DNA of 9,721 nucleotides, taken from Myxococcales bacterium (GTDB taxonomy: Bacteria; Desulfobacterota_B; Binatia; UBA1149; SPBQ01). Location of the stretch: assembly GCA_004525875.1 (NCBI GenBank), contig SPBQ01000048.1, forward strand, positions 1 through 9,721. Reading direction: 5' to 3'. The notes under the pieces are model-generated. The model saw only the letters and a list, made by a program, of their open reading frames with translations. It was not told where the DNA came from and did not search any database. Positions 1 through 9,721 of the stretch are shown piece by piece (position 1 is the stretch's first letter; each line of letters begins with the position of its first letter). The translations under genes were made by a program, and so were the position numbers.

Positions 1-1012
1 CCAGCGCCTCGAGCGTGGTGCGCGCGTCGGCGACGATGCCGAGCTCGACGGGGCGGGTGACGGCGATGTTCCTCGCATCGATGTCGATCTGGATGATGCG
101 ATGCTTGCCAGCCGGTCCCCAGTACTTGTCGTAGGGCAGCTCGAGATTTCCCATGCGCGAGCCCACCACCAGCATGACGTCGGCTTCCTTTCTGACGACA
201 TCGGCACCCGGCCCGAAGCCGTACACGCGCGCGGGATGGTCGGTCGGCATCGCGCTGCGGCCCGACATCGTGGTGATGACGGGGCAGCCGAGCAGTTCGG
301 CGACGTCGAGCAGCGTGTCGTTGGCGGCGGAGCGATCGACGCCCGTGCCCGCGAACAGCACCGGCCGTTCGGCCGCCGTGAGCATCTGTGCCGCCTGCTC
401 GAGCTGTTCGCGCGATGCTTGCGGCTGCGCGGCGCGTGACTGCCGCGGCTGCCAGATCGGGGCGGCGGCGGGGCTACCGGGCTGGTAGATCACGGTCATC
501 GGCATTTCGATATGGACCGGACCCGGACGGCCGCTCCACATCTCGCGAAACGCGATGCGCATGATATCGGGGATGCGGTCCCAGACGTGAATCGGCGCGC
601 CCCACTTCACGGCCGGCTTGAACAGATCGATCTGGTCCTGGCCCTGGAATGTCGAGGGGGGCGCGGGGTACACGACGCCGAGTCGATGCTGGGCCGTGAT
701 CACCACCACCGGAACGCCCTCGTGCAGCGCGGTGACGACGCCCGGCACGAGGTTGGCGGAACCGGGCCCGGGGTTACCGATGACGGCGGCGACCTGTCCG
801 GTTGTCTTGTACACGCCCTCGGCCATGTGGACTGCGGCCGCCTCGTGACGAATGGGCACGAAGCGAAGGCCGTTGGGCTCGAGCGCGGCGAGGATCGGCT
901 CGATCTCGGGGCAGGGCAGGCCGAACAGGATCTTGACGCCCTCGGAGGCGAGGCAGCGGACGAGGAGCTCGCCGCCTGTGATTTCGGGACTCGCGCTTGG
1001 CTCGGTGCTCAT
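1..1012 (-). CDS. Thiamine-diphosphate-dependent enzyme, acetolactate synthase-like (partial, N-terminal part)
   Basis: The frame is open from ATG at 1012 to the window edge, giving 337 codons without the C-terminal domain. Residues about 12-180 form the pyrimidine-binding ThDP domain: an FGLPCPEI segment near residue 31, then RHEAAAVHMAEGV, whose Glu57 is at the position of the cofactor-activating glutamate in this family. GNPGPGSAN (about 79-87) and FQGQDQIDLF follow. Residues about 190-337 form the central domain, with LFAGTGVDRSAA and an IIQIDIDARNI segment. Family members decarboxylate 2-keto acids or join the resulting carbanion to a second carbonyl (acetolactate synthase, benzoylformate decarboxylase, oxalyl-CoA decarboxylase, glyoxylate carboligase). 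The substrate cannot be chosen because the C-terminal pyrophosphate-binding domain lies outside the window. The gene is downstream of surE on the same strand, 123 bp away with a hairpin between, so it is probably a separate unit. The family call is firm. Confidence 0.9.
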   Translation of the reverse strand, partial: MSTEPSASPEITGGELLVRCLASEGVKILFGLPCPEIEPILAALEPNGLRFVPIRHEAAAVHMAEGVYKTTGQVAAVIGNPGPGSANLVPGVVTALHEGVPVVVITAQHRLGVVYPAPPSTFQGQDQIDLFKPAVKWGAPIHVWDRIPDIMRIAFREMWSGRPGPVHIEMPMTVIYQPGSPAAAPIWQPRQSRAAQPQASREQLEQAAQMLTAAERPVLFAGTGVDRSAANDTLLDVAELLGCPVITTMSGRSAMPTDHPARVYGFGPGADVVRKEADVMLVVGSRMGNLELPYDKYWGPAGKHRIIQIDIDARNIAVTRPVELGIVADARTTLEAL

Positions 1013-1078
1013 GGATGTCTGCTATCCAAGTGCAGCGGCCGAGGGAAGCGCACACGCGGGTGTCGGAAACGCCAAAGT

Positions 1079-1101
1079 GGCGATCCCGTAGCGGAATCGC
1101 C
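1079..1101 (-). terminator. Hairpin downstream of the TetR-surE unit
   Basis: GGCGAT (1079-1084) pairs with ATCGCC (1096-1101). Inside, CCG (1086-1088) pairs with CGG (1092-1094) around the loop TAG, with one mismatch between the two stems. It begins about 35 nt after the surE stop on the minus strand. Only a short T-run (ACTTT) follows on that strand, so it may be a weak intrinsic terminator or a processing hairpin. A smaller hairpin, CGCCA-AAG-TGGCG (1070-1082), overlaps it. Confidence 0.4.
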
Positions 1102-1135
1102 CCTTTCGCCGATCAATGTGAGCGCGACGACGTGT

Positions 1136-2092
1136 CTACTGGAACGGGACCTTGGTGAGAGACTTGAAGCGCTTGAGCTTGTTGTCGACCGTCTTGTCCG
1201 GGTTCAGCACCGTCAGGCTGATGTAGCCGTTCAAGAACGCGTCGAGGTCATTGGTCGGGTCCTCGACGGTCGAGGTGCAGTCGGCCTCACCGATGATGGC
1301 GGCGGCGCCGTTGTTGATCCATGTCGGCAGGAAGACGCCGGGGGTGACCTGTTCCACGTAACCGGTGAACGTGAGGAGCTGGGCTAGCGGTACCAGCGCG
1401 ACGCCGCGGATCGAGCCCGTCGTGCAGGTCGGCACGTTCACGTTGAGAATTGCGGCCTGTCCGAGGCCGTTCTTGTTGACCAGCTTCTTGGCGAAGCTCT
1501 TCTTGGTTCTGAAGGTCTCGACTAGGTTGGCGACGTACTTCGCGGCAGCCGTGTAGTCGGTCCCGTTGCGCTGCTGGCTGACGGCGATCGCCGGAATTCC
1601 CATGCGTCCTGCGGTCAGAGCTGCGCCGACGGTTCCGGAGATACTGGCGCCGATCTCGCGGCCGAGATTCTGTCCGCCGTTGATTCCGGTAACGACGAGA
1701 TCCGGAGCGAAGCCGAGACCGAGCACCCCGTAGAGCACACAGTCGGCAGGGAATCCGTCGACCGCCTTGTCGTCGGGTTCGGTCGCGGTGCCAGCCGTCG
1801 AGCCGGGTGTCACCGTGATCGTGTTCGGGGGCTCGGTCTTGCTGTCTCCCGAGCCGCTCTTGTTCACATCGGGTGCCACCACCCGAACGATCAGGTTCGG
1901 ATTCGATCGGAGCTCGTCGACCAGAACGTCGATCCCCCCGTTCGTACCCGTGGCGCCGATGCCGTCGTCATTGGCCACCAGTACGCGCAGCGTCTGCGCC
2001 TCGGCGTCCCCCACCCGGCAGAGCAACAGCGACATGCCGAGGATCAGCCCGAATAGCCCGAGCGTTCTCGTCTTGAGTTCCGAAGTCTTCAT
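1136..2092 (-). CDS. surE: SurE-family 5'/3'-nucleotidase (survival protein E) with signal peptide
   Basis: The 318-residue product matches the SurE fold. VLVANDDG carries metal-binding Asp42 and Asp43. NKSGSG carries Ser79 (NRSG in classical SurE). FPADCVLYG (114-122), DLVVTGINGGQNLG (131-144, with metal ligand Asn138), SGTVGAALTAG and GIPAIAVS follow. SurE proteins are metal-dependent phosphatases acting on nucleoside monophosphates and sometimes short polyphosphate. Unusually, residues 1-32 look like a Sec signal peptide: charged start, hydrophobic LGLFGLILGMSLLLC, then an AEA|QT cleavage site. The enzyme is therefore probably periplasmic or secreted, whereas textbook SurE is cytoplasmic. 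Residues 85-110 form a Gly/Thr/Pro-rich insert. The start is well supported: AGGAGG lies 4 nt upstream (2097-2102). The ATG overlaps the TGA of the upstream TetR gene, suggesting translational coupling. The physiological substrate is unknown. Confidence 0.88.
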   Translation of the reverse strand: MKTSELKTRTLGLFGLILGMSLLLCRVGDAEAQTLRVLVANDDGIGATGTNGGIDVLVDELRSNPNLIVRVVAPDVNKSGSGDSKTEPPNTITVTPGSTAGTATEPDDKAVDGFPADCVLYGVLGLGFAPDLVVTGINGGQNLGREIGASISGTVGAALTAGRMGIPAIAVSQQRNGTDYTAAAKYVANLVETFRTKKSFAKKLVNKNGLGQAAILNVNVPTCTTGSIRGVALVPLAQLLTFTGYVEQVTPGVFLPTWINNGAAAIIGEADCTSTVEDPTNDLDAFLNGYISLTVLNPDKTVDNKLKRFKSLTKVPFQ

Positions 2093-2787
2093 GATTCCTC
2101 CTGTTCACTTGCGGCGATCCCTTGCAGGATCGATACGCAGTAGCGGATCAGCAAAGTATTTCCTTCTTCGAGACTGACCTCACCCGCCCGCCACTTGAGG
2201 GCGAGCTGGTAAAAGGTGGCGATCCACAGCTCGACGATCATTTCCGCGTCGGCCCGCGTCGACAGGACCGGCTCGATATAGCCCATCCACCGCTCCACGA
2301 ACGGCTGGCGTACGTGCACGACGCGGTCCGCAACCGCCGGGCTCGCATACGGCGAAGCTGCCAGAAATAGACCGGCGGCCCCTTCCTCCGCGATGAGCGC
2401 CCACGCCGCGCCCGCAACCCGGTGCCCCCAGTCCGCCAGCTGGTCGGGCCCGAACGTGCTCGGGTCCATGACAAGCTCTTCGAGCGAGCCGAGCTTGTGC
2501 TGCAGAATTCTCTCGAAGTCGGCGAGGACGGCGATGAGAAGGTCCTCTCGCCGGGCGAAGTAGCTGTGGACGACCTGTCGCGAGCAACCTGCAACCTTCG
2601 CGACCTCCGCCATGCGCAGGTTGTCGACGCCCTTGGACTCGATCAGCATCGCGGCCGCGCGAATGAGCTGCGCGCGCCGACGCTGCGCTTGGGATTCCAG
2701 CGGGATGGAGCGCAACGGCTGGTCTTGCACCGCGTGGGCCTCTGCTCTGGCGGCGGCCGACGCGAACACTCTCGATCGCTGAATCAT
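2089..2787 (-). CDS. TetR/AcrR-family transcriptional regulator, upstream of surE
   Basis: Up to 232 residues. The N-terminal DNA-binding domain spans about 36-85 (RRAQLIRAAAMLIESKGV, then the helix-turn-helix MAEVAKVAGCSRQVVHSYFA at about 59-78, then RREDLL). A helical ligand-binding domain follows. TetR proteins usually repress their own and neighbouring genes until a small molecule binds. Its TGA overlaps the surE ATG by 4 bases, so the two are co-transcribed and probably share control. The start is uncertain: ATG at 2787 has no Shine-Dalgarno, while GTG at 2730 (codon 20) has AGAGG 8 nt upstream and gives a more usual N-terminal length. A TTGACA box with an overlapping palindrome lies just upstream at 2813-2826, consistent with autoregulation. 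The ligand is unknown. Confidence 0.88.
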   Translation of the reverse strand: MIQRSRVFASAAARAEAHAVQDQPLRSIPLESQAQRRRAQLIRAAAMLIESKGVDNLRMAEVAKVAGCSRQVVHSYFARREDLLIAVLADFERILQHKLGSLEELVMDPSTFGPDQLADWGHRVAGAAWALIAEEGAAGLFLAASPYASPAVADRVVHVRQPFVERWMGYIEPVLSTRADAEMIVELWIATFYQLALKWRAGEVSLEEGNTLLIRYCVSILQGIAASEQEES

Positions 2788-2812
2788 CGTTCATGCGGTG
2801 TACCCGGCGGCC

Positions 2813-2826
2813 TGACAGCATGTCAA
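2813..2826 (-). promoter_or_regulatory. Candidate promoter -35 box with overlapping operator for TetR-surE
   Basis: On the minus strand a perfect TTGACA (2826-2821) is followed 17 nt later by GTACAC (2803-2798), a poor -10. The perfect palindrome TGACA-GCA-TGTCA (2813-2825) overlaps the -35, the usual place for a TetR operator. The predicted transcript would start only a few bases before ATG 2787, which favours the GTG start at 2730. Confidence 0.4.
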
Positions 2827-3000
2827 GTGAGAATGACGCTCTGTCCCGACGCCCCGACGCGTGGTCAGTTTCCGCTGTGGATACGCCGTATGCTGCGAGG
2901 GGTTGGTACCAATCGCCAGCCCAAATCGTCGCGCGATCGCAGCCCGCGCGCACGACTCAGGCGGGGGCGCCACGGCGGCGCCTTCGTGTCCAACAAGCTG

Positions 3001-3705
3001 CTATGCGACTCCGGGATTGCGGATGGCCGCGAGGGATCGTTTCTGGATGGCGTTGGCGTCGAAGTTCTCGGGGGCAAGCCACGTCTCGAAGGCCCGCGTC
3101 GCTTCGGGCCATTCGCGGTCGAGAAGTGAGAACCAGGCGGTATCGCGATTGCGGCCGGAGACGACCATATCCTGGCGGAACACGCCCTCGAAGACGAAGC
3201 CGAGCCGGCGAGCCGCGCGCTTCGACGCCTCGTTCTCGTCGTTGCACTTCCACTCGTAGCGGCGGTATCCCGACTCGCCGAGCACGTTGCGCGCCAGCAG
3301 ATACATCGCCTCGGTTGCAGCGATGGTGCGTTGCATGAGCCTCGAGTAGAGGACGAAGCCGACCTCGGCCGAGCCGGCGTCGGGCCGTACTCGCATATGG
3401 CTCGCCGTTCCGATGAGCAGCCCGTCCTCGAGACGACGGAAGACGTAGGGAATCCACCCGTCGTGCTCGGTTACATAGGCGAAGAAGTCGGTCACGTTCT
3501 TCGCGGAGTCGAAAGGCTCGAAGGGGAGGTAGCGCCACAGGGCTGCGTCACTGCGGTTGCAGAGGCGTTCGACGAACTCTCCGGCATCTCGCTGCGGGGA
3601 GAAGCGTGAAATCGAGACGTGCGCGCCGTCGAGCGGTCCGAACGGCTCGAGTGGTCGCGGCTGCCAGGCAAGCTGCTGGCCTGTGGAGCCAGGGCTTTCG
3701 CTCAT
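3001..3705 (-). CDS. GNAT-family N-acetyltransferase (RimJ/RimL type)
   Basis: 234 residues from ATG 3705. The acetyltransferase domain covers most of the protein. Recognisable parts are the N-terminal GAHVSISRFSP strand region, WRYLPFEPFDSAKNVTDFF (about 57-75), IPYVFRRLEDGLLIGT (85-100), AEVGFVLYSRLMQRTIAATEA (about 113-133, equivalent to the acetyl-CoA pyrophosphate loop), GYRRYEWKCNDENEASKRAA (146-165), RLGFVFEGVFRQ and NRDTAWFSLLDREWP. This pattern matches a common COG1670 group that acetylates amines on proteins or small molecules; the substrate is unknown. The frame stays open upstream to ATG 3786, but MSESPGS at 3705 is preferred because family members start shortly before the WxPRP-like segment. 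No strong Shine-Dalgarno is visible. It appears monocistronic. Confidence 0.88.
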   Translation of the reverse strand: MSESPGSTGQQLAWQPRPLEPFGPLDGAHVSISRFSPQRDAGEFVERLCNRSDAALWRYLPFEPFDSAKNVTDFFAYVTEHDGWIPYVFRRLEDGLLIGTASHMRVRPDAGSAEVGFVLYSRLMQRTIAATEAMYLLARNVLGESGYRRYEWKCNDENEASKRAARRLGFVFEGVFRQDMVVSGRNRDTAWFSLLDREWPEATRAFETWLAPENFDANAIQKRSLAAIRNPGVA

Positions 3706-3811
3706 TGCGCGGCTTCTAGCACTCCCGCTTATGTGATCAACCCGGAGCGCGGGGACGCCGCAGCGATCGCGACGCCGACCTTGCATGGAGCGATCGCATG
3801 GAAGAGCTGCT

Positions 3812-3834
3812 CGGAGGCTTCCGGTTAGCCTCCG
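3812..3834 (-). terminator. Perfect 8 bp hairpin between the antiporter and acetyltransferase genes
   Basis: CGGAGGCT (3812-3819) pairs perfectly with AGCCTCCG (3827-3834) around the loop TCCGGTT. It lies downstream of the antiporter gene, on the far side of the inserted element, and ahead of the acetyltransferase gene. There is no T-run on either strand. It may be the original 3' hairpin of the antiporter transcript, since the TAA ending the coding-like tail (3825-3827) sits at the loop edge. Confidence 0.35.
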
Positions 3835-3900
3835 GTGGGCTCAGAGAAGCAGGCGCGCTCGCGCCGGTAGTCCTCGAATGAGCGCGGGCGGCCCTGCCGC
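3825..3900 (-). pseudogene. Possible severed 3' tail of the antiporter gene
   Basis: On the minus strand, immediately past the inserted element, one frame runs from 3899 to TAA at 3825-3827 and reads RQGRPRSFEDYRRERACFSE, then PTGG. In this frame 21 of 24 codons end in G or C, as in the real genes nearby. The frame directly continuous with the antiporter ends after 19 codons and has only about 12 of 19 GC-ending codons. If 3901-4084 is removed, antiporter codons GAC ACC CC join G CGG CAG in frame. The natural reading is that the antiporter once ended here. The stretch is too short to be sure, and it could instead be chance coding-like composition. Confidence 0.35.
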
Positions 3901-4084
3901 CTAGCCCGGACTATTCATGAAGCACTCTGCCACGACGCCGAAATTCGCATCATCCCGGGCCGTGCTCGCTCTTCGCTCGTCGACGTACTGTTCCAGTACG
4001 CCTCCTCTCTCATCACTGTGCTTGCCCCGACCTGACGCATACTTCGGCGTCTCGCGACGAGCGTTGATGAATAGTCCGGGCTAG
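3901..4084. mobile_element. 184 bp MITE-like element with long terminal inverted repeats
   Basis: CTAGCCCGGACTATTCAT at 3901-3918 is repeated as its exact reverse complement at 4067-4084; the match extends one base further out on each side. In the same register, GACGCCGAA (3934-3942) mirrors TTCGGCGTC (4043-4051). Over 51 bp the two ends match at 36 positions, so these are long imperfect inverted repeats. No ORF of note lies between them. Inside are the hairpin CGTACTG-TTC-CAGTACG (3984-4000) and an off-register 9 bp pair (3974-3982 with 4055-4063). The palindromic CTAG at both ends could be a 4 bp target duplication or part of the element. The form fits a non-autonomous DNA transposon. The terminal CCCGG and 4 bp duplication recall IS1380-type ends, but that family assignment is a guess. 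Confidence 0.72.
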
Positions 4085-5319
4085 GGGGTGTCGTTCGTCT
4101 GCGTCACCCCGAGCCAGCGCGCGCTCGGCACCAGCGTGAGGCCCTGGATCAGGACGGACGTGATCACGAGAAAGAAGACGACGTCGAAGATCTGATCGCC
4201 GCGCGCCACGCCGTACGAAGCCGGGAAGGTCGACAGCACGATCGGGACGGAACCCCGAAGACCAACCCACGACGTGTAGGCGAGCTCGTTGCGCTTCGGT
4301 CGAAATGGCAGCAGGCACACGACCACGGCCACCGGTCGCGCCACGAACATGAGGAGGAGACCGAGCGCGATCGACACTGGAGCCACGCCGAGCATTCGGG
4401 ACGGGAACACGAGCAGGCCCAGAACCACGAACATCGCGATCTGCGCGAGCCAGGAGAGTCCGTCGTGGAACGCCAGGACGCCCGCTTTCTCGGTATCGAT
4501 CCGGTTTCCAAGCGCCACGCCGGTGACGTAGACCGCCAGGAAGCCGTTGCCTCCGATGAGGTCCGCGCCACCGAAGGCCACCAGACCGAAGGCGGTTACC
4601 TGCAGCGGGTAGAGCCCGGCGTCCGGAAGATCGGCGCGGTTCACCAGCCAGGCTCCGAGAAGGCCGAGCACGAAGCCGATCAGGCCACCGAGCAGCAGTT
4701 GCGACGCGAGCGTACCGGCCAGCGCTCCGGCCGATCCGTCCGAACCGGTCATGAAACCAAGAAGGCCCGTCGTCAGGAGCACCGCCATGGGGTCGTTGCT
4801 CCCGGACTCGAACTCGAGAAGAGCCCGGAGGCGGGGCGAGGGCCGCACGTTGCTGGTCCGGAAGACCGAGAAGACGGCCGCCGCATCGGTGGAGCTCACG
4901 ATGGCGGCGAGCAGCAAGGCCTCGGGCCACGTGAGCCCGGTCGTGCCGAGGTCGAAAGACGAGTACTCCCCGAGCAGGAACCAGGCGCAGCTCCCGAGGA
5001 CGAGCGTGGGCAGCGCGACGCCGACGGTGGCGAGCACGAGGCCGGGGGCGAGCACCGGACGGACCGAGCGCCAGTCCGTCGCGAGGCCGCCGGCAAAGAG
5101 GATGATGAGCAACGCCACCTCGCCCACGGACCGGGCGACCTCGGCCGACTCGAACTCAATGCCCCCGATGCCCTCGGATCCGGCGAGCATGCCGACCGCG
5201 AGGAACACGAGCAGCGACGGAATCCCCAGGCGGCTGGACAGCTTGCCGGCGAGCACCGCAGCGAGCAGCAGGACGCCGCCGACGAGTACCGCAACCTCTA
5301 GCGAAAATGACATCGGCAC
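4081..5319 (-). CDS. Cation/proton antiporter, NhaP2-like (CPA family), short C-terminus
   Basis: A 412-residue integral membrane protein of about 12 hydrophobic segments. It has the Na+(K+)/H+ exchanger core: LSSRLGIPSLLVFLAVGMLAG (27-47), LLIILFAGGLATDW, SSTDAAAVFSVF (142-153, with Asp145 at the ion-binding position), LEFESGSNDPMAVLL (168-182, with Asn175-Asp176), and near the end SWVGLRGSVPIVLSTFP. It should exchange K+ or Na+ for H+ across the inner membrane. Full-length NhaP2/CvrA proteins carry cytoplasmic TrkA-C and CorC-type regulatory domains; this one stops about 15 residues after the last membrane helix. The TAG stop (4083-4081) lies within the terminal CTAG of the inserted element, so the natural C-terminus may have been altered. 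Start is GTG 5319 or ATG 5313; neither has a clear Shine-Dalgarno. It is transcribed divergently from the MerB-family gene, with 123 bp between. Confidence 0.88.
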   Translation of the reverse strand: MPMSFSLEVAVLVGGVLLLAAVLAGKLSSRLGIPSLLVFLAVGMLAGSEGIGGIEFESAEVARSVGEVALLIILFAGGLATDWRSVRPVLAPGLVLATVGVALPTLVLGSCAWFLLGEYSSFDLGTTGLTWPEALLLAAIVSSTDAAAVFSVFRTSNVRPSPRLRALLEFESGSNDPMAVLLTTGLLGFMTGSDGSAGALAGTLASQLLLGGLIGFVLGLLGAWLVNRADLPDAGLYPLQVTAFGLVAFGGADLIGGNGFLAVYVTGVALGNRIDTEKAGVLAFHDGLSWLAQIAMFVVLGLLVFPSRMLGVAPVSIALGLLLMFVARPVAVVVCLLPFRPKRNELAYTSWVGLRGSVPIVLSTFPASYGVARGDQIFDVVFFLVITSVLIQGLTLVPSARWLGVTQTNDTP

Positions 5320-5442
5320 GAAGCTTTCACCCGTCGCTCCCCCCTGGCAACGTCGCTGCTGCGAACCGGTGGTGCATGCCCGTTCATGGGCGCACTCTGC
5401 CCGTAGTGCACTCGCCTTGACCGTTCAGTGGAGGTTCCGCAT

Positions 5443-6213
5443 ATGACCGTCCCGATGATGGATCGCGCGCTTCTCGGCGTCGGCCGCACGATGGTTCCCG
5501 TTCCCGGCTTCGTATGGAAGGCCGCCATACGCGCCGGCGCACGCAAGGTCACCGCCGGGCTCGGCTTCATGACGGCCGATCATCGGCGCGTCCACCACTT
5601 CGTCGTCGTCGAACTCTTGCGCGCGGGCGTGCCGTTGTCGCTGAGAACGATTGCTGCGGGGCTGGACCAACCCGAGCGGCGCGTCGAAGAGATCCTGGCC
5701 GATCTGGCCCGGCGGCTCACGTTCCTGGCGCGCGACGAACACGGCGCCGTCACGTGGGCGTACCCGGTCACCGTCGAGAAGACGCCGCACCACGCGCATG
5801 TGGACACCGGCGAGGACGCGTACTCGCCTTGAGCGATCGACACTCTCGCCATGCCCTTCGTGCAAGGGCGGCTCAGGGCGAAACCGGTGGCTGTCGTCTA
5901 CGAGACGGAGTGCGTCTGTTGCTCCCGACCGATGCGCCTCGAGATCCGCAGCGATCTCCACTATCGGGTCGAGGATGAGGCCGCACCACTCGCCTACCTG
6001 CCGATCGTCGACTTCGCGAAGCTGAAGCAGCCGACGATCATCGATGTGTTCTGACGAAGATCAGTATTCTTCTGGTCAGAAGAGCACGCACGCCGGCATC
6101 GACGCAGACACGGACGCGGCCGCGGCCTCTACCTCACGCTCGACCAGGCGGCCTTCATCACGCCCATCATGCAGGGAGCCTTGTTCGGGTTGCCGCCGTC
6201 GCCGTCCGGATGA
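5443..6213 (+). CDS. MerB-family (organomercurial lyase-like) selenoprotein with two in-frame UGA codons
   Basis: Read from ATG 5443 (GGAGG 8 nt upstream) through TGA 5830-5832 and TGA 6052-6054 to TGA 6211-6213, this is one 256-residue protein. Residues about 44-106 form a MerB-type N-terminal winged-helix region (HHFVVVELLRAGVPLSLRTI, LDQPERRVEEILADLAR). WAYPVTVEKTPH leads to AYSP-UGA-AIDTLAMPFVQGR, which aligns with LYAWCALDTLIFPALIGR of plasmid MerB as I remember it: UGA130 = catalytic Cys96 and Asp133 = Asp99. The second UGA (204) lies in IIDVF-UGA-RRSVFFWSEEHARRH, matching FCCHVHFFAS around MerB Cys158/Cys159. The end (LTLDQAAFITPIMQGALFG) looks natural. MerB cleaves carbon-mercury bonds using these two cysteines and the aspartate. 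Cys157, Cys159 and Cys160 use TGC/TGT, so UGA marks only the active-site positions. SECIS-like hairpins follow both UGAs. No merA, merR or other mer gene is nearby, so the substrate is open. The alternative is a pseudogene with two nonsense mutations, unlikely given their positions. Confidence 0.85.
5848..5872 (+). promoter_or_regulatory. Candidate bacterial SECIS element for UGA 5830-5832
   Basis: GCCCUU (5853-5858) pairs fully with AAGGGC (5864-5869) around the five-base loop CGUGC, whose second base is G followed by U. Below it GCC (5848-5850) pairs with GGC (5870-5872) with AU bulged on the 5' side. An alternative closing pair is UGAGC at the UGA itself with GCUCA (5871-5875). The loop begins 26 nt after the UGA, within the roughly 16-37 nt usual for bacterial SECIS hairpins. 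Such hairpins are bound by SelB to place selenocysteine. Confidence 0.65.
6067..6084 (+). promoter_or_regulatory. Candidate bacterial SECIS element for UGA 6052-6054
   Basis: UCUUCU (6068-6073) pairs perfectly with AGAAGA (6078-6083) around the loop GGUC (6074-6077); a U-G wobble (6067/6084) can extend the stem. The loop begins 19 nt after the UGA. GGUC is the sequence presented in the apical loop of the E. coli formate dehydrogenase SECIS, where SelB contacts the G and U. Two competing hairpins exist: GAAGA (6056-6060) with UCUUC (6068-6072), and GAUCAG (6059-6064) with CUGGUC (6072-6077). Confidence 0.68.
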
Positions 6214-6258
6214 TCAGCCGCGCACGCGACTGCGGTCGCACCCGGAGCCCGGACGGCG
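6200..6258. terminator. Inverted repeat between convergent genes, possible bidirectional terminator
   Basis: CGCCGTCCGG (6200-6209) is the exact reverse complement of CCGGACGGCG (6249-6258). The enclosed 39 nt contain a second small hairpin, GCGAC-TGCG-GTCGC (6226-6239). The structure spans the stop codon of the MerB-family gene and precedes the end of the convergent Rieske gene. No T-run follows on either strand, so intrinsic termination is uncertain. Confidence 0.35.
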
Positions 6259-6294
6259 CTTTGCGATTGGCCGCGCTATGCCCGTGTGCCGCGC

Positions 6295-7563
6295 TCACTT
6301 CGTGCCGTCGAAACGCTCGAGCGGCGCCATGCCCAGCGCCTGGCGGTAGTGCTGATGGTAGTGGTGCAGCGCGGGCTCGTTGCGACCGAAGATCACGTGA
6401 TCGAGCGTGCCGTTGTCGGCTGCACGCTGTGTCGTTTCTCCCATCAGGTAGTCTTCCTTCTCGATGGTGCTGTCGAACGTCTCGAACAACGCCGAGATGT
6501 CGAAGACCACCGGCTCGCCGTAGTTTCGATCGAAGCCGTCGCGGTCGTACACGTTCTCGGCCGTGACTTTCTGCACGTCGGACTCGGCCGCGGCCAGCGC
6601 GAGTGCCTCGGGGGTGAGGTAGTGGGCCACGCGTGTTAGAGAACGGCTGGGATCGTCCGGGTGCGGATAGATCTTGATCAGGTTCACGTTGTCGGGGCCG
6701 AACGAGAACTGGACGTTCGGGAACAGGAAGTACAGCGGGCTCGTGCCCTGCAGCATGTCCCAGCGCTCTTCGGGCTGCTCCCGCATCAGGTCGATGCCGC
6801 GCGTGGCGATCACGAAGCGGTGGTTACGCCCGAACTCCTCGTAGTGCAGGACGTCGCCATGGAAGATCTGGCCGAGCGTGTCCTTGTGGAGCTTGAGGAA
6901 GTGGTAGGTCTCCCCGAACGTGTCGTTGGCCAGCTTCCAGTTGAGTCGTTTCTCGATGACCGTCTCTCCCTGGAAGATCAGATCCTCGCCGAACTTCCAC
7001 GAGTCGATCTCCGGCGCGAGACCGCCGAGTAACTCGTCGATGTCGATGTGCCCGTCGACCTTCGGGTGCACCCACAGGAGCCCGTACTTCTCGACAGCAG
7101 GCAGCTCGATCAGGCCGCGGCATGACTTGTCCACGTCGCCGAAGTGTTCCTGCTGCGGGATGCCCACGAGGTCGCCCTCGCTCGAATAGGTCCAGTTGTG
7201 GAACGGGCAGACGAAACGCCTGCGGGTGCCGCGGTCGTCCTGCGCCACACGCACACCTCGATGCCTGCACGCGTTCAGGAAAGCGCGGAAGCGACCCTCC
7301 TCGTCGCGGGTGGTCAGGACAGGGACACCGAAGTCGTCGATCGTGAGGAAGCTGCCAGGCTCGCGGAGATCACCGGACAGCCCGATGAGCTGCGGGTGGT
7401 TCCGGAACAGGACCTCCCATTCCTTGCCGGCAATCTCGGGGCAGGTGTAGACCGACGTGGGGCTCTTGTACATGACGCCGGCGTCCACGTTGACCTTCTC
7501 GTCGATCTGCCGCATGAGCTCCTTGAGGATCGTTACCTGCTTGGTATGCTCCATCGTCTGCAT
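6295..7563 (-). CDS. Rieske non-heme iron oxygenase, alpha subunit (aromatic ring-hydroxylating dioxygenase type)
   Basis: 422 residues, the usual length for an oxygenase large subunit. The Rieske [2Fe-2S] domain has C99-R-H101 and C119-P-F-H122 (NACRHRGVRV ... FVCPFHNWTY). The catalytic domain has NDTFGETYHFLKLH with Asp214, His221 and His226; His221 and His226 are the mononuclear iron ligands. EKEDYLMGETTQR near residue 371 supplies the expected third carboxylate ligand. Such enzymes use O2 and electrons from a reductase, sometimes via a ferredoxin, to hydroxylate or demethylate aromatic, steroid or quaternary-amine substrates in the cytoplasm. No beta subunit, ferredoxin or reductase gene is in the window, so the substrate cannot be named. 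The start is supported by AAAGGAG 7 nt upstream of ATG 7563. The gene follows a TetR gene by 50 bp on the same strand, probably forming an operon with it. It ends facing the MerB-family gene. Confidence 0.92.
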   Translation of the reverse strand: MQTMEHTKQVTILKELMRQIDEKVNVDAGVMYKSPTSVYTCPEIAGKEWEVLFRNHPQLIGLSGDLREPGSFLTIDDFGVPVLTTRDEEGRFRAFLNACRHRGVRVAQDDRGTRRRFVCPFHNWTYSSEGDLVGIPQQEHFGDVDKSCRGLIELPAVEKYGLLWVHPKVDGHIDIDELLGGLAPEIDSWKFGEDLIFQGETVIEKRLNWKLANDTFGETYHFLKLHKDTLGQIFHGDVLHYEEFGRNHRFVIATRGIDLMREQPEERWDMLQGTSPLYFLFPNVQFSFGPDNVNLIKIYPHPDDPSRSLTRVAHYLTPEALALAAAESDVQKVTAENVYDRDGFDRNYGEPVVFDISALFETFDSTIEKEDYLMGETTQRAADNGTLDHVIFGRNEPALHHYHQHYRQALGMAPLERFDGTK

Positions 7564-7613
7564 GACGCGTCTCCTTTGCTCGTGTTGCGCGATCGCGCTT
7601 CGTCAGGGGCGAT

Positions 7614-8342
7614 TCACGCCGTTATCTCTTCGTCGTCTTCGGGTTTGTCACCGGACCGTGCAGGTCCGCGCAGGTCCGGTTCCAGCTTCTTGAGCTCGGC
7701 TTCCAGATCGGGCCGCAGCGCGTCGCTCGCCACCGAGAGTAGCGCGACGTAGAGCCCGTAGAGGGCTCGCGCCTCGAACTCGGCAGTGTCGATCAACCCT
7801 CGTGCCCACAGCGAGCAGGCCATGTCGTAGCCGTGGTAGATCTGCGAGCCGAGCACGTCGGGCGCGAGCACGTCGCGTAGCAAGCCGCGCTCGACGGCCG
7901 CCTCGATGGCGACCCGTTGCATGCCGGCGGCGCGTTCCGGCATCCCGAAGCGATCGGAGGGAGGGGCGGAGAGCCCCGCGTAGAGCGCCACGAACATCGG
8001 GCGGCACAGCGATTCGTGTTCGAGGATGTAGGCGATGCTGACGGTGATGACGGCGCGGCAGCGCTCGATCGGATCGTCGAGCGGTGCTTCCACGTCGAGG
8101 ATGCGATCGATGCGGTCGACGAGGTCGTGGACGAGCGCGCAGACGATGTCATCGCGCGAGCCGAACAGGTTGTAGAGCGTCGTGACGCTGAAGCCGGCCT
8201 CGCGCGCCAGCTTGCGCATCGAGAGCGCATCCATGCCCTCGCGGGCGATGAGTTCGCCGGCGGCCTCGAGGATGCGTCGGCGCCGGGCCCCGACGTTGAT
8301 CGCGCGGAGGGTCTTCGGCTCGCAGTCCAGATTCTGTAACAT
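7614..8342 (-). CDS. TetR/AcrR-family transcriptional regulator, upstream of the Rieske oxygenase
   Basis: 242 residues. The DNA-binding domain spans about 18-66 (RRRRILEAAGELIAREGMDA, then the helix-turn-helix MRKLAREAGFSVTTLYNLFG at about 42-61, then SRDDIV), followed by a helical ligand-binding domain with YILEHESLCRPMFVALYAGL. The acidic tail GDKPEDDEEITA is probably disordered. It should bind DNA as a dimer and respond to a small molecule, plausibly the oxygenase substrate or a related acyl-CoA (inference). A perfect 7-1-7 palindrome overlaps its start codon, which suggests autoregulation. No Shine-Dalgarno precedes ATG 8342 and no good internal start was found, so translation may be leaderless. 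It lies upstream of the Rieske gene and divergent from the hydantoinase B-type gene, so it may control both. Confidence 0.88.
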   Translation of the reverse strand: MLQNLDCEPKTLRAINVGARRRRILEAAGELIAREGMDALSMRKLAREAGFSVTTLYNLFGSRDDIVCALVHDLVDRIDRILDVEAPLDDPIERCRAVITVSIAYILEHESLCRPMFVALYAGLSAPPSDRFGMPERAAGMQRVAIEAAVERGLLRDVLAPDVLGSQIYHGYDMACSLWARGLIDTAEFEARALYGLYVALLSVASDALRPDLEAELKKLEPDLRGPARSGDKPEDDEEITA

Positions 8343-8349
8343 TGTTACA
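8335..8349. promoter_or_regulatory. Candidate TetR operator overlapping the regulator's start codon
   Basis: TGTAACA-T-TGTTACA is a perfect 15 bp palindrome. The ATG of the TetR gene (8342-8340 on the minus strand) lies inside it. A further half-site, TGTTAC, occurs at 8361-8366. Bound repressor here would block transcription start or elongation into its own operon. Confidence 0.45.
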
Positions 8350-8602
8350 AGTTGATACGGTGTTACGCATCCTGAGGCAAATCTTTCGAGGTGCCGGCAG
8401 ATCCGGGGTGAACGACCTAGGTTGCTCGTCTGTTAGCTGCGCAGATCGGGCCGAGCTTTGCGCTGCCGCCGGCGTTGCTGCCTCCGTGTCCCGAGTAGCC
8501 CTCGTCGCGATGCTCCAGCGCTGCCGAAGCGGCCGCCCCGCTAGAAGCTTAGCGAGCTCTGCGACGAGGCGAGTCGTGCCGTATCCGCTCGGTGACTCTG
8601 CT

Positions 8603-8631
8603 TTGCGATTGCTGTGAGCCTCGCCCATATT
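8603..8631 (+). promoter_or_regulatory. Candidate sigma-70-type promoter of the hydantoinase B-type gene
   Basis: TTGCGA (8603-8608) and CATATT (8626-8631) are separated by 17 nt; each matches consensus at 4 of 6 bases. Transcription would start near 8638, leaving a leader of about 135 nt. The adjacent palindrome at 8642-8655 strengthens the case. Confidence 0.35.
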
Positions 8632-8641
8632 ACGCGCTCAC

Positions 8642-8655
8642 TAGAACGTGTTTCA
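8642..8655. promoter_or_regulatory. TetR-type operator of the TNNAACNNGTTNNA class
   Basis: TAGAACGTGTTTCA fits TNNAACNNGTTNNA, the pattern known for the KstR-type TetR regulator of mycobacterial steroid catabolism and seen with other TetR proteins. The ideal form TAGAACGTGTTCTA is missed only in the right outer arm. It sits just downstream of the candidate -10, where a bound repressor would block transcription. Which regulator binds is unknown. Confidence 0.45.
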
Positions 8656-8772
8656 CTCCACCCGGGCGGGTCCTAGAGGGGGCGCTCAGAGGTGTTTCCT
8701 TGACGGCTCTCGAGCACGGGCCGGACCCGTCGGTGGCGTGCCGAGCGGCTGTAGATTCGGAAGGATCGGGTA

Positions 8773-9721
8773 ATGAGCGACGCTAGCGGGCACAGTCTGA
8801 AGGAGCAGCTGCGGGCCGACGAAAAGGCTTTCGAGGAGACCGGCCACCTGTTCGGCCTCGAGAAGCTCGAGCGCAAGGAGTCCGATCCGGGCACCTACGA
8901 GGCGGTCTGGCACATCCTTTCGAACCTCTGCGATGCCGCCTGGTCGACCGGTTGCAAGGTCTCCTCGTCGCCGATCGCGGCCGAGGGGGGTGATGCGCTC
9001 TGGGCCCTTCACGTGCCCACCGGAGAGGCCATCTGCACGTCGCGCGGCATCACCGCGCACCCGGGCCTGCTCGCCGACATGGTCCGCAATTTCATCGAGC
9101 TCGGCTACGAGGAATACCCGGGCTTCAAGCAGGGCGATATCTTCGAGAACAACGACCCCCACTACGGCGGCATCCACGCGCCCGACTTCGACATGTGCAT
9201 GCCGATCTTCTACCGCGACAAGCTGGTGGCGTGGGCGAGTGCGGTGAGCCACGTGAGCGACTGCGGATCGGTCGTCGCCGGCTCGATCGGTTTCCTCAAC
9301 CCCGATTGCTACTCCGACGGTCTCACCGTCTCGATGGAGAAGGTCGGCGAGAACGATCGCTTCTATCCGTGGTACGAGATGCGCATCAAGTCGCGCACGC
9401 GCACACCCGACTGGGTGATGGGTGACGCCCGTGGTCGTGTGGCCGGCTGCATCACGATCCGCGAACGGCTCACGGAGATGATCGAGAAGTACGGTCTCGA
9501 CTTCTTCCTCGATGCCAGCAAGGAGTACGTCGAGGACAGCCGGCGGTACGCCGTCGGCCGCGTCAAGACGCAGACCGTGCCGGGTCTCATCCGCAAGTCG
9601 CAGTTCAAGGACCTGGCGATGAAGGGCAAGCGCACGCTCCTCGCCAAGCAGGACATCGACTGTCTCTTCAACCTACCGATGGAGCTCGAGATCGAGGCCG
9701 ACGCCAACGTTCGCATCTCTC
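8773..9721 (+). CDS. Hydantoinase B/oxoprolinase family protein, acetone-carboxylase alpha-like (partial)
   Basis: The frame is open from ATG 8773 to the window edge, 316 codons, so the C-terminal part is missing. GGAAGG lies upstream at suitable spacing. The diagnostic block is QGDIFENNDPHYGGIHAPDF (about 120-139), followed by PIFYRDKLVAWASAVSHVSD (144-163), equivalent to the GDxxxxNDPxxGGxHxxD and GHHxDxGG regions of HyuB proteins. The family includes the B subunit of ATP-dependent N-methylhydantoinases and 5-oxoprolinases, and the alpha subunits of acetone and acetophenone carboxylases. All act with a HyuA-type partner that activates a substrate carbonyl with ATP. A partner gene probably follows outside the window. 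The acetone-carboxylase-like side is favoured from overall resemblance only. Control is probably through the promoter and operator at 8603-8655. Confidence 0.82.
   Translation, partial: MSDASGHSLKEQLRADEKAFEETGHLFGLEKLERKESDPGTYEAVWHILSNLCDAAWSTGCKVSSSPIAAEGGDALWALHVPTGEAICTSRGITAHPGLLADMVRNFIELGYEEYPGFKQGDIFENNDPHYGGIHAPDFDMCMPIFYRDKLVAWASAVSHVSDCGSVVAGSIGFLNPDCYSDGLTVSMEKVGENDRFYPWYEMRIKSRTRTPDWVMGDARGRVAGCITIRERLTEMIEKYGLDFFLDASKEYVEDSRRYAVGRVKTQTVPGLIRKSQFKDLAMKGKRTLLAKQDIDCLFNLPMELEIEADANVRIS

Follow-up and report, generated by a model that had tools for sequence, protein, structure and literature searches.

In the MerA/MerB survey PMC8261052, MerB works through Cys96, Asp99 and Cys159, homologues are screened for these three residues, and HgcAB is reported in none of the genomes with MerB alone. 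Among the selenoprotein families of PMC13188914, 119 according to its text, the only MerB-like entry in Table 1 is SaoL, with one selenocysteine (Sec) in a CU motif. The same table contains a putative mercuric transport protein, a UxxU metal-binding protein, HgcA and HgcB, which resemble the gene described here in having a predicted Sec and mercury-linked names but differ in belonging, judged by the table accessions, to other domain families. Here we describe a 9,721-nucleotide stretch of DNA from a Myxococcales bacterium placed by GTDB in the Binatia (assembly GCA_004525875.1, contig SPBQ01000048.1, positions 1 to 9,721, forward strand), hereafter the window, which carries a free-standing MerB-family gene (5443..6213, + strand; 256 codons followed by a stop) in which we read two in-frame TGA codons as Sec. 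We consider it probable that the protein, which has a predicted MerB fold and UGA codons most likely encoding Sec at both catalytic cysteine positions, cleaves C-Hg bonds by means of two selenolates.

A MerB with two Sec was not found in literature searches limited to open-licence papers in PubMed Central: it is absent from the passages seen of PMC9312934 and PMC2398784, and PMC12013277 is without any of the terms sought. The preliminary description of this DNA, whose author did not know of MerB as an established selenoprotein family, is to be qualified by the one-Sec, MerB-like SaoL.

In-frame UGA codons at the catalytic positions of a MerB-family gene

The frame at 5443-6213 contains TGA only at codon 130 (5830..5832, +) and codon 204 (6052..6054, +), and a third TGA (6211..6213, +) terminates it, in agreement with the preliminary description of a single frame interrupted at these two codons. 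With cysteine placed at the UGAs, the whole frame reached 50.4 bits with Pfam MerB (PF03243; gathering cut-off 27), which bears out the family assignment made earlier from the letters. Residues 1-129 alone and the open reading frame (ORF) 5851-6054 matched no Pfam family, and residues 1-129 gave weak NCBIfam MerB matches (21 bits). The NCBIfam MerB models NF009710 and NF033555 scored 53.1 bits against a cut-off of 193 and 52.8 against 200, the cut-offs not being reached.

A confident AlphaFold model of the window protein has the MerB fold, and its structural alignment to MerB gives 16-22% sequence identity. Positions counted along the alignment to solved MerB in the PDB place U130 at Cys96, D133 (5839..5841, +) at the catalytic acid Asp99, C157 (TGC, 5911..5913, +) at Cys117 and U204 at Cys159; the Asp99-equivalent Asp and the Cys117-equivalent Cys are each present in 81/81 sequences. 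The earlier matching of UGA130 with Cys96, with Asp kept at the Asp99 position, is thus confirmed. UGA204 had been assigned to Cys158/Cys159, which the alignment corrects to Cys159 exactly; the residue just before U204 is Phe. MerB (PF03243; PDB 3F0O, 3F2F) and MerB2 (5C17) have Cys at both catalytic sites, whereas the window family has UGA at both, shows only the above identity to them, stays under the NCBIfam MerB cut-offs and lies outside a mer operon.

Homologues were obtained from a search of 5.8 billion proteins, which gave 42, and from a profile search, which gave 162, 120 of these being used. A total of 129 database proteins (P0002-P0130) were classified at the two sites: among the matches listed, 64 stop exactly at position 130, 45 (e.g. 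P0002-P0004) show Trp at each site, 13 carry Cys130 and terminate precisely at 204, one (P0082) has Cys at both sites with a sequence after 204 that departs from the family, and three are incomplete or misaligned. The Trp readings probably reflect gene prediction in which TGA was translated as Trp, and they offer a possible route to hidden selenoproteins.

At the DNA level, one genome per species was scanned with amino-acid patterns omitting both UGA sites, one of which overlies the first of the hairpins described below. This yielded 95 relatives, 80 of which were kept for DNA analysis. All carriers of the 80 loci are metagenome-assembled genomes (MAGs), some of whose lineage labels may be wrong; their titles name Chloroflexi/Anaerolineae, delta-proteobacterial and Desulfobacterales lineages, Acidobacteriota, Nitrospirae, Binatia, Rokuibacteriota, Gemmatimonadota, Zixiibacteriota, Spirochaetes and others. 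The codon pair is TGA/TGA in 79/80 loci and TGC/TGA in the other, L056. Of the canonical triad Cys96/Asp99/Cys159, the Asp is conserved, with UGA at both Cys positions in the window and in these 79 loci. Because the pair is shared in this way, its origin by chance is excluded, as had been argued earlier from the improbability of two nonsense mutations at exactly these sites; the question then raised, whether homologues have Cys or UGA there, is answered by UGA at both sites or Cys130 with UGA204. An extra in-frame stop occurs in six of the 80 loci, always at codon 245 or later. In a quick tree of 94 rows the window clusters with L001-L004 (SH-aLRT, an approximate likelihood-ratio test of branches, 95), and at least 8 Sec/Cys changes are needed at site 130, the trait column having been left in. 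No relative was found by a single-protein scan of genome contigs, and none was confirmed in viral contigs.

Purifying selection acts downstream of both UGAs. Twelve non-overlapping pairs of relatives, with the hairpin codons excluded, gave mean proportions of nonsynonymous and synonymous differences (pN/pS) of 0.099/0.399 upstream of UGA130, 0.100/0.371 in the segment from one UGA to the other and 0.092/0.376 downstream of UGA204.

Conserved hairpins downstream of both UGA codons

Each UGA is followed by a conserved hairpin that is predicted, from conservation and compensatory changes, to be a selenocysteine insertion sequence (SECIS) element. Hairpin 1 (GCCCUU-CGUGC-AAGGGC; 5853..5869, +) lies 20 nt after UGA130, and hairpin 2 (UUCUUCU-GGUC-AGAAGAG; 6067..6084, +) lies 12 nt after UGA204, its family form at the same distance being UUCUUCU-GGUC-AGAAGAA. 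The GGUC loop of hairpin 2 resembles the loop of the E. coli fdhF SECIS.

Codon choice in the hairpins is more uniform than the background usage of the family. In hairpin 1, Pro138 is CCC in 79/81 sequences (background 30%), Val140 is GTG in 81/81 (36%), Gln141 is CAA in 71/81 (37%) and Gly142 is GGG in 80/81 (23%); in hairpin 2, Ser212 is TCA in 72/81 (11%). Furthermore, pairing in hairpin 2 is retained at the cost of a conserved residue: all five changes of Trp211 to Arg (CGG) are accompanied by Ser TCG, both changes of Phe210 to Leu (CTC) by GAG at Glu213, and the sole change of Glu213 to Lys (AAA) by TTT at Phe210. Paired cells amounted to 472/480 for hairpin 1 (80 sequences, without L056) and 566/567 for hairpin 2 (81 sequences), and none of 2000 column shuffles, which ignore relatedness, matched the observed pairing or double changes.

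Selenocysteine machinery in the genomes of relatives

SelB was found over cut-off in 43/50 genomes of relatives and in 24/29 of a second set (L034 excluded), SelA over cut-off in 46/50, and tRNA-Sec at 60 bits or more in 42/50. This threshold was used for tRNA-Sec, the gathering score being lax (passed by 5/14 controls). Counted from the lists, all three are present in 36/50 genomes and at least one in 49/50.

Selenoprotein reading and rival explanations

The exact alignment with Cys96 and Cys159, the conservation across phyla, the exchange with Cys at site 130, the compensated hairpins and the selection on the read-through segments together give strong support, at the level of sequence, for Sec at both UGAs, and it is from these comparisons that we infer selenium insertion at both. 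The double selenoprotein proposed in the preliminary description gains its support from the UGA/Cys pattern of the relatives and from the conserved hairpins after both codons.

Several observations weigh against the proposed double-Sec, mercury-cleaving enzyme. The mean folding energy of 51-nt segments at the UGAs is not below that of synonymous-codon permutations (z +2.4 and +0.8), hairpin 1 is retained in L056 despite its Cys130, and single homologues, among the matches listed, have S/C, S/R or G/L at the two sites. In the genome of L001, the closest relative of the window gene and the one exception among the 50, neither SelA nor SelB nor tRNA-Sec reached the levels applied. SelB is in any case common, in 131/148 genomes of one phylum and 124/150 of one class (samples that include a few carriers), so that its presence in relatives fits the need for Sec insertion but gives no evidence of an association. 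On the side of mercury, no mer genes recur next to the 80 copies, and membership of a mer operon was rejected on this ground; MerA over cut-off is absent from 49/50 genomes. The single genome with MerA over cut-off (G039) holds L056, the sole Cys130 locus, which is one case. Sub-cut-off MerA matches, with E values of 1e-100 or better, occur in 40/50 genomes and are probably related flavoenzymes. With MerA over cut-off mostly missing and no mer genes recurring nearby, the link to mercury rests on the fold and the residues.

Absence of selenocysteine altogether, through decay of the gene or through UGA meaning tryptophan under a different genetic code, is extremely improbable and in effect refuted. 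The Trp at both sites of 45/129 homologues among the matches listed is what TGA=Trp gene calling would give; however, the family encodes Trp as TGG (309 codons in 81 genes), and in 38/80 loci the terminator of the gene, taken as the first stop beyond codon 225, is a TGA, so that UGA also serves as a stop there. Site 130 moreover changes to Cys, in L056 (TGC) and in 13 homologues among the matches listed, and UGA as Trp was rejected on these three grounds. Decay was rejected on the same UGA pair in 79/80 loci, where no other in-frame stop precedes about codon 245, and on the purifying selection after both UGAs. It is also very unlikely, though somewhat less so, that the gene is no more than a SaoL selenoprotein (NF040728) carrying an additional UGA. 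The SaoL model run against 395 genomes gave five matches, two over cut-off, of which L087 (329 to about 880) was read in frame. This SaoL is likewise a MerB-like selenoprotein, with an ordinary Cys at the Cys96 site and Sec at the Cys159 site, placed there by eye on the following FF, and 12 nt past its Sec codon stands UUCUUCUGUCAGAAGGA, a UUCUUCUG..CAGAAGGA stretch much like hairpin 2; the Cys130 members of the window family share its Cys/Sec pattern. Because of this Sec at the same position and the similar hairpin at the same distance, the second Sec (204) may be common to SaoL and the double-UGA family by descent. Nevertheless, the window protein scored 30.9 bits with the SaoL model, whose cut-off is 140, and thus below its own MerB scores. 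SaoL has one Sec in a CU motif, as given in Table 1 of PMC13188914, and L087 has Cys at the Cys96 site, whereas the double-UGA family has Sec twice in a free-standing gene. No transporter cluster recurs within 10 kb of the 80 copies, as judged with crude ORF calling and with the sao models not run on the flanks. SaoL membership was rejected on the score under the curated cut-off and on two UGAs with no CU motif. By sequence, then, the window gene is best described as a MerB-superfamily selenoprotein apart from both MerB and SaoL, with a predicted Sec204 in common with SaoL and a predicted Sec130 added.

An unlikely but not negligible alternative is a genuine double selenoprotein without C-Hg lyase activity, which either acts on another organometal(loid) substrate or only binds and traffics Hg(II) or another soft metal with its selenolate pair. 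The lack of recurrent mer genes nearby, the lack of MerA over cut-off in 49/50 genomes and MerB scores of 53 bits, far short of the curated thresholds of 193 and 200, are in line with it, as is the naming of the related SaoL merely as an organometallic lyase. On the other hand, the whole MerB catalytic set is in place, with U/C at positions 96 and 159 and the Asp99 and Cys117 equivalents in 81/81 sequences, and a pure binding role is disfavoured because it leaves the conserved Asp unexplained. By analogy with MerB, an enzymatic function of the double-UGA protein is likely, and that of a selenium-dependent organometal lyase is plausible.

Proposed mechanism and significance

If the double-Sec protein cleaves C-Hg bonds as MerB does, one selenolate would capture the mercury of R-Hg+ and the second would bind the same Hg atom. 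Asp133 would then give a proton to the departing carbon, with release of RH, and Hg(II) would remain bound by both selenolates before passing to a thiol or selenol carrier, a transfer that would proceed without MerA in most of the hosts examined.

A wider proposal, which we regard as possible although doubtful, is that the free-standing double-Sec MerB, present without MerA in many phyla including methylmercury makers, is a mer-independent methylmercury demethylase of anaerobes. The overlap with methylmercury makers refers to HgcA, over cut-off in 21/50 carrier genomes, somewhat more often than in one phylum sample (39/148 genomes), lineages not being matched between the two. Annotation, which takes UGA for a stop, would conceal a double-Sec MerB, and the survey PMC8261052 would have missed double-UGA genes as truncated because both Cys were required. 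Should the protein cleave methylmercury, the demethylator inventory lacks a branch in MAGs labelled Chloroflexi, delta-proteobacterial/Desulfobacterales, Acidobacteriota, Nitrospirae and others, and a widespread selenium-based destruction of organic mercury may have been overlooked. An enzyme with Sec at both metal-binding catalytic positions would also let one test directly why soft-metal chemistry makes use of selenium, for which the natural Cys130/Sec204 relatives offer a comparison with the Sec/Sec form.

Genomic neighbourhood and other observations

Upstream ORFs were called crudely in 75/80 loci, and 49 codirectional ones were scanned. The nearest upstream codirectional ORF belongs to the MerR family in 8 of these and to the MarR family in 8, examples of loci with a regulator upstream being L022:9356-9949 and L066:969-1418; this points to a dedicated sensor for the gene in some lineages. 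Downstream, 74 ORFs were called and the 33 codirectional ones scanned, and every family was matched by at most 3.

N-terminal RRTFL signals of the twin-arginine translocation (Tat) type were seen in P0031, P0105, P0108, P0112, P0115, P0118, P0119 and P0121, the window protein being without one. A simple pattern matched 10/130 records, two of which were discounted by eye, and Pfam TAT_signal matched in four. Some family members may thus be exported.

In the window, GGAGG (5430..5434, +), 8 nt before the ATG, is a likely ribosome-binding site of the MerB-family gene. The flanking genes encode a Na+/H+ exchanger (4081-5319, minus strand) and a Rieske oxygenase (6295-7563, minus strand), neither of which is an obvious partner. 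The hydantoinase gene of the window, compared with 10 genomes to place the host, reached no more than 36% identity. A tRNA search of the window found none, and an Rfam scan gave one sub-threshold match, elsewhere than in the MerB-family gene. An intergenic element of about 190 bp at 3897-4088, bounded by inverted repeats of 25 nt that are 92% complementary and enclosing a further inverted repeat, looks like a palindromic repeat or a repeat of the miniature inverted-repeat transposable element (MITE) type.
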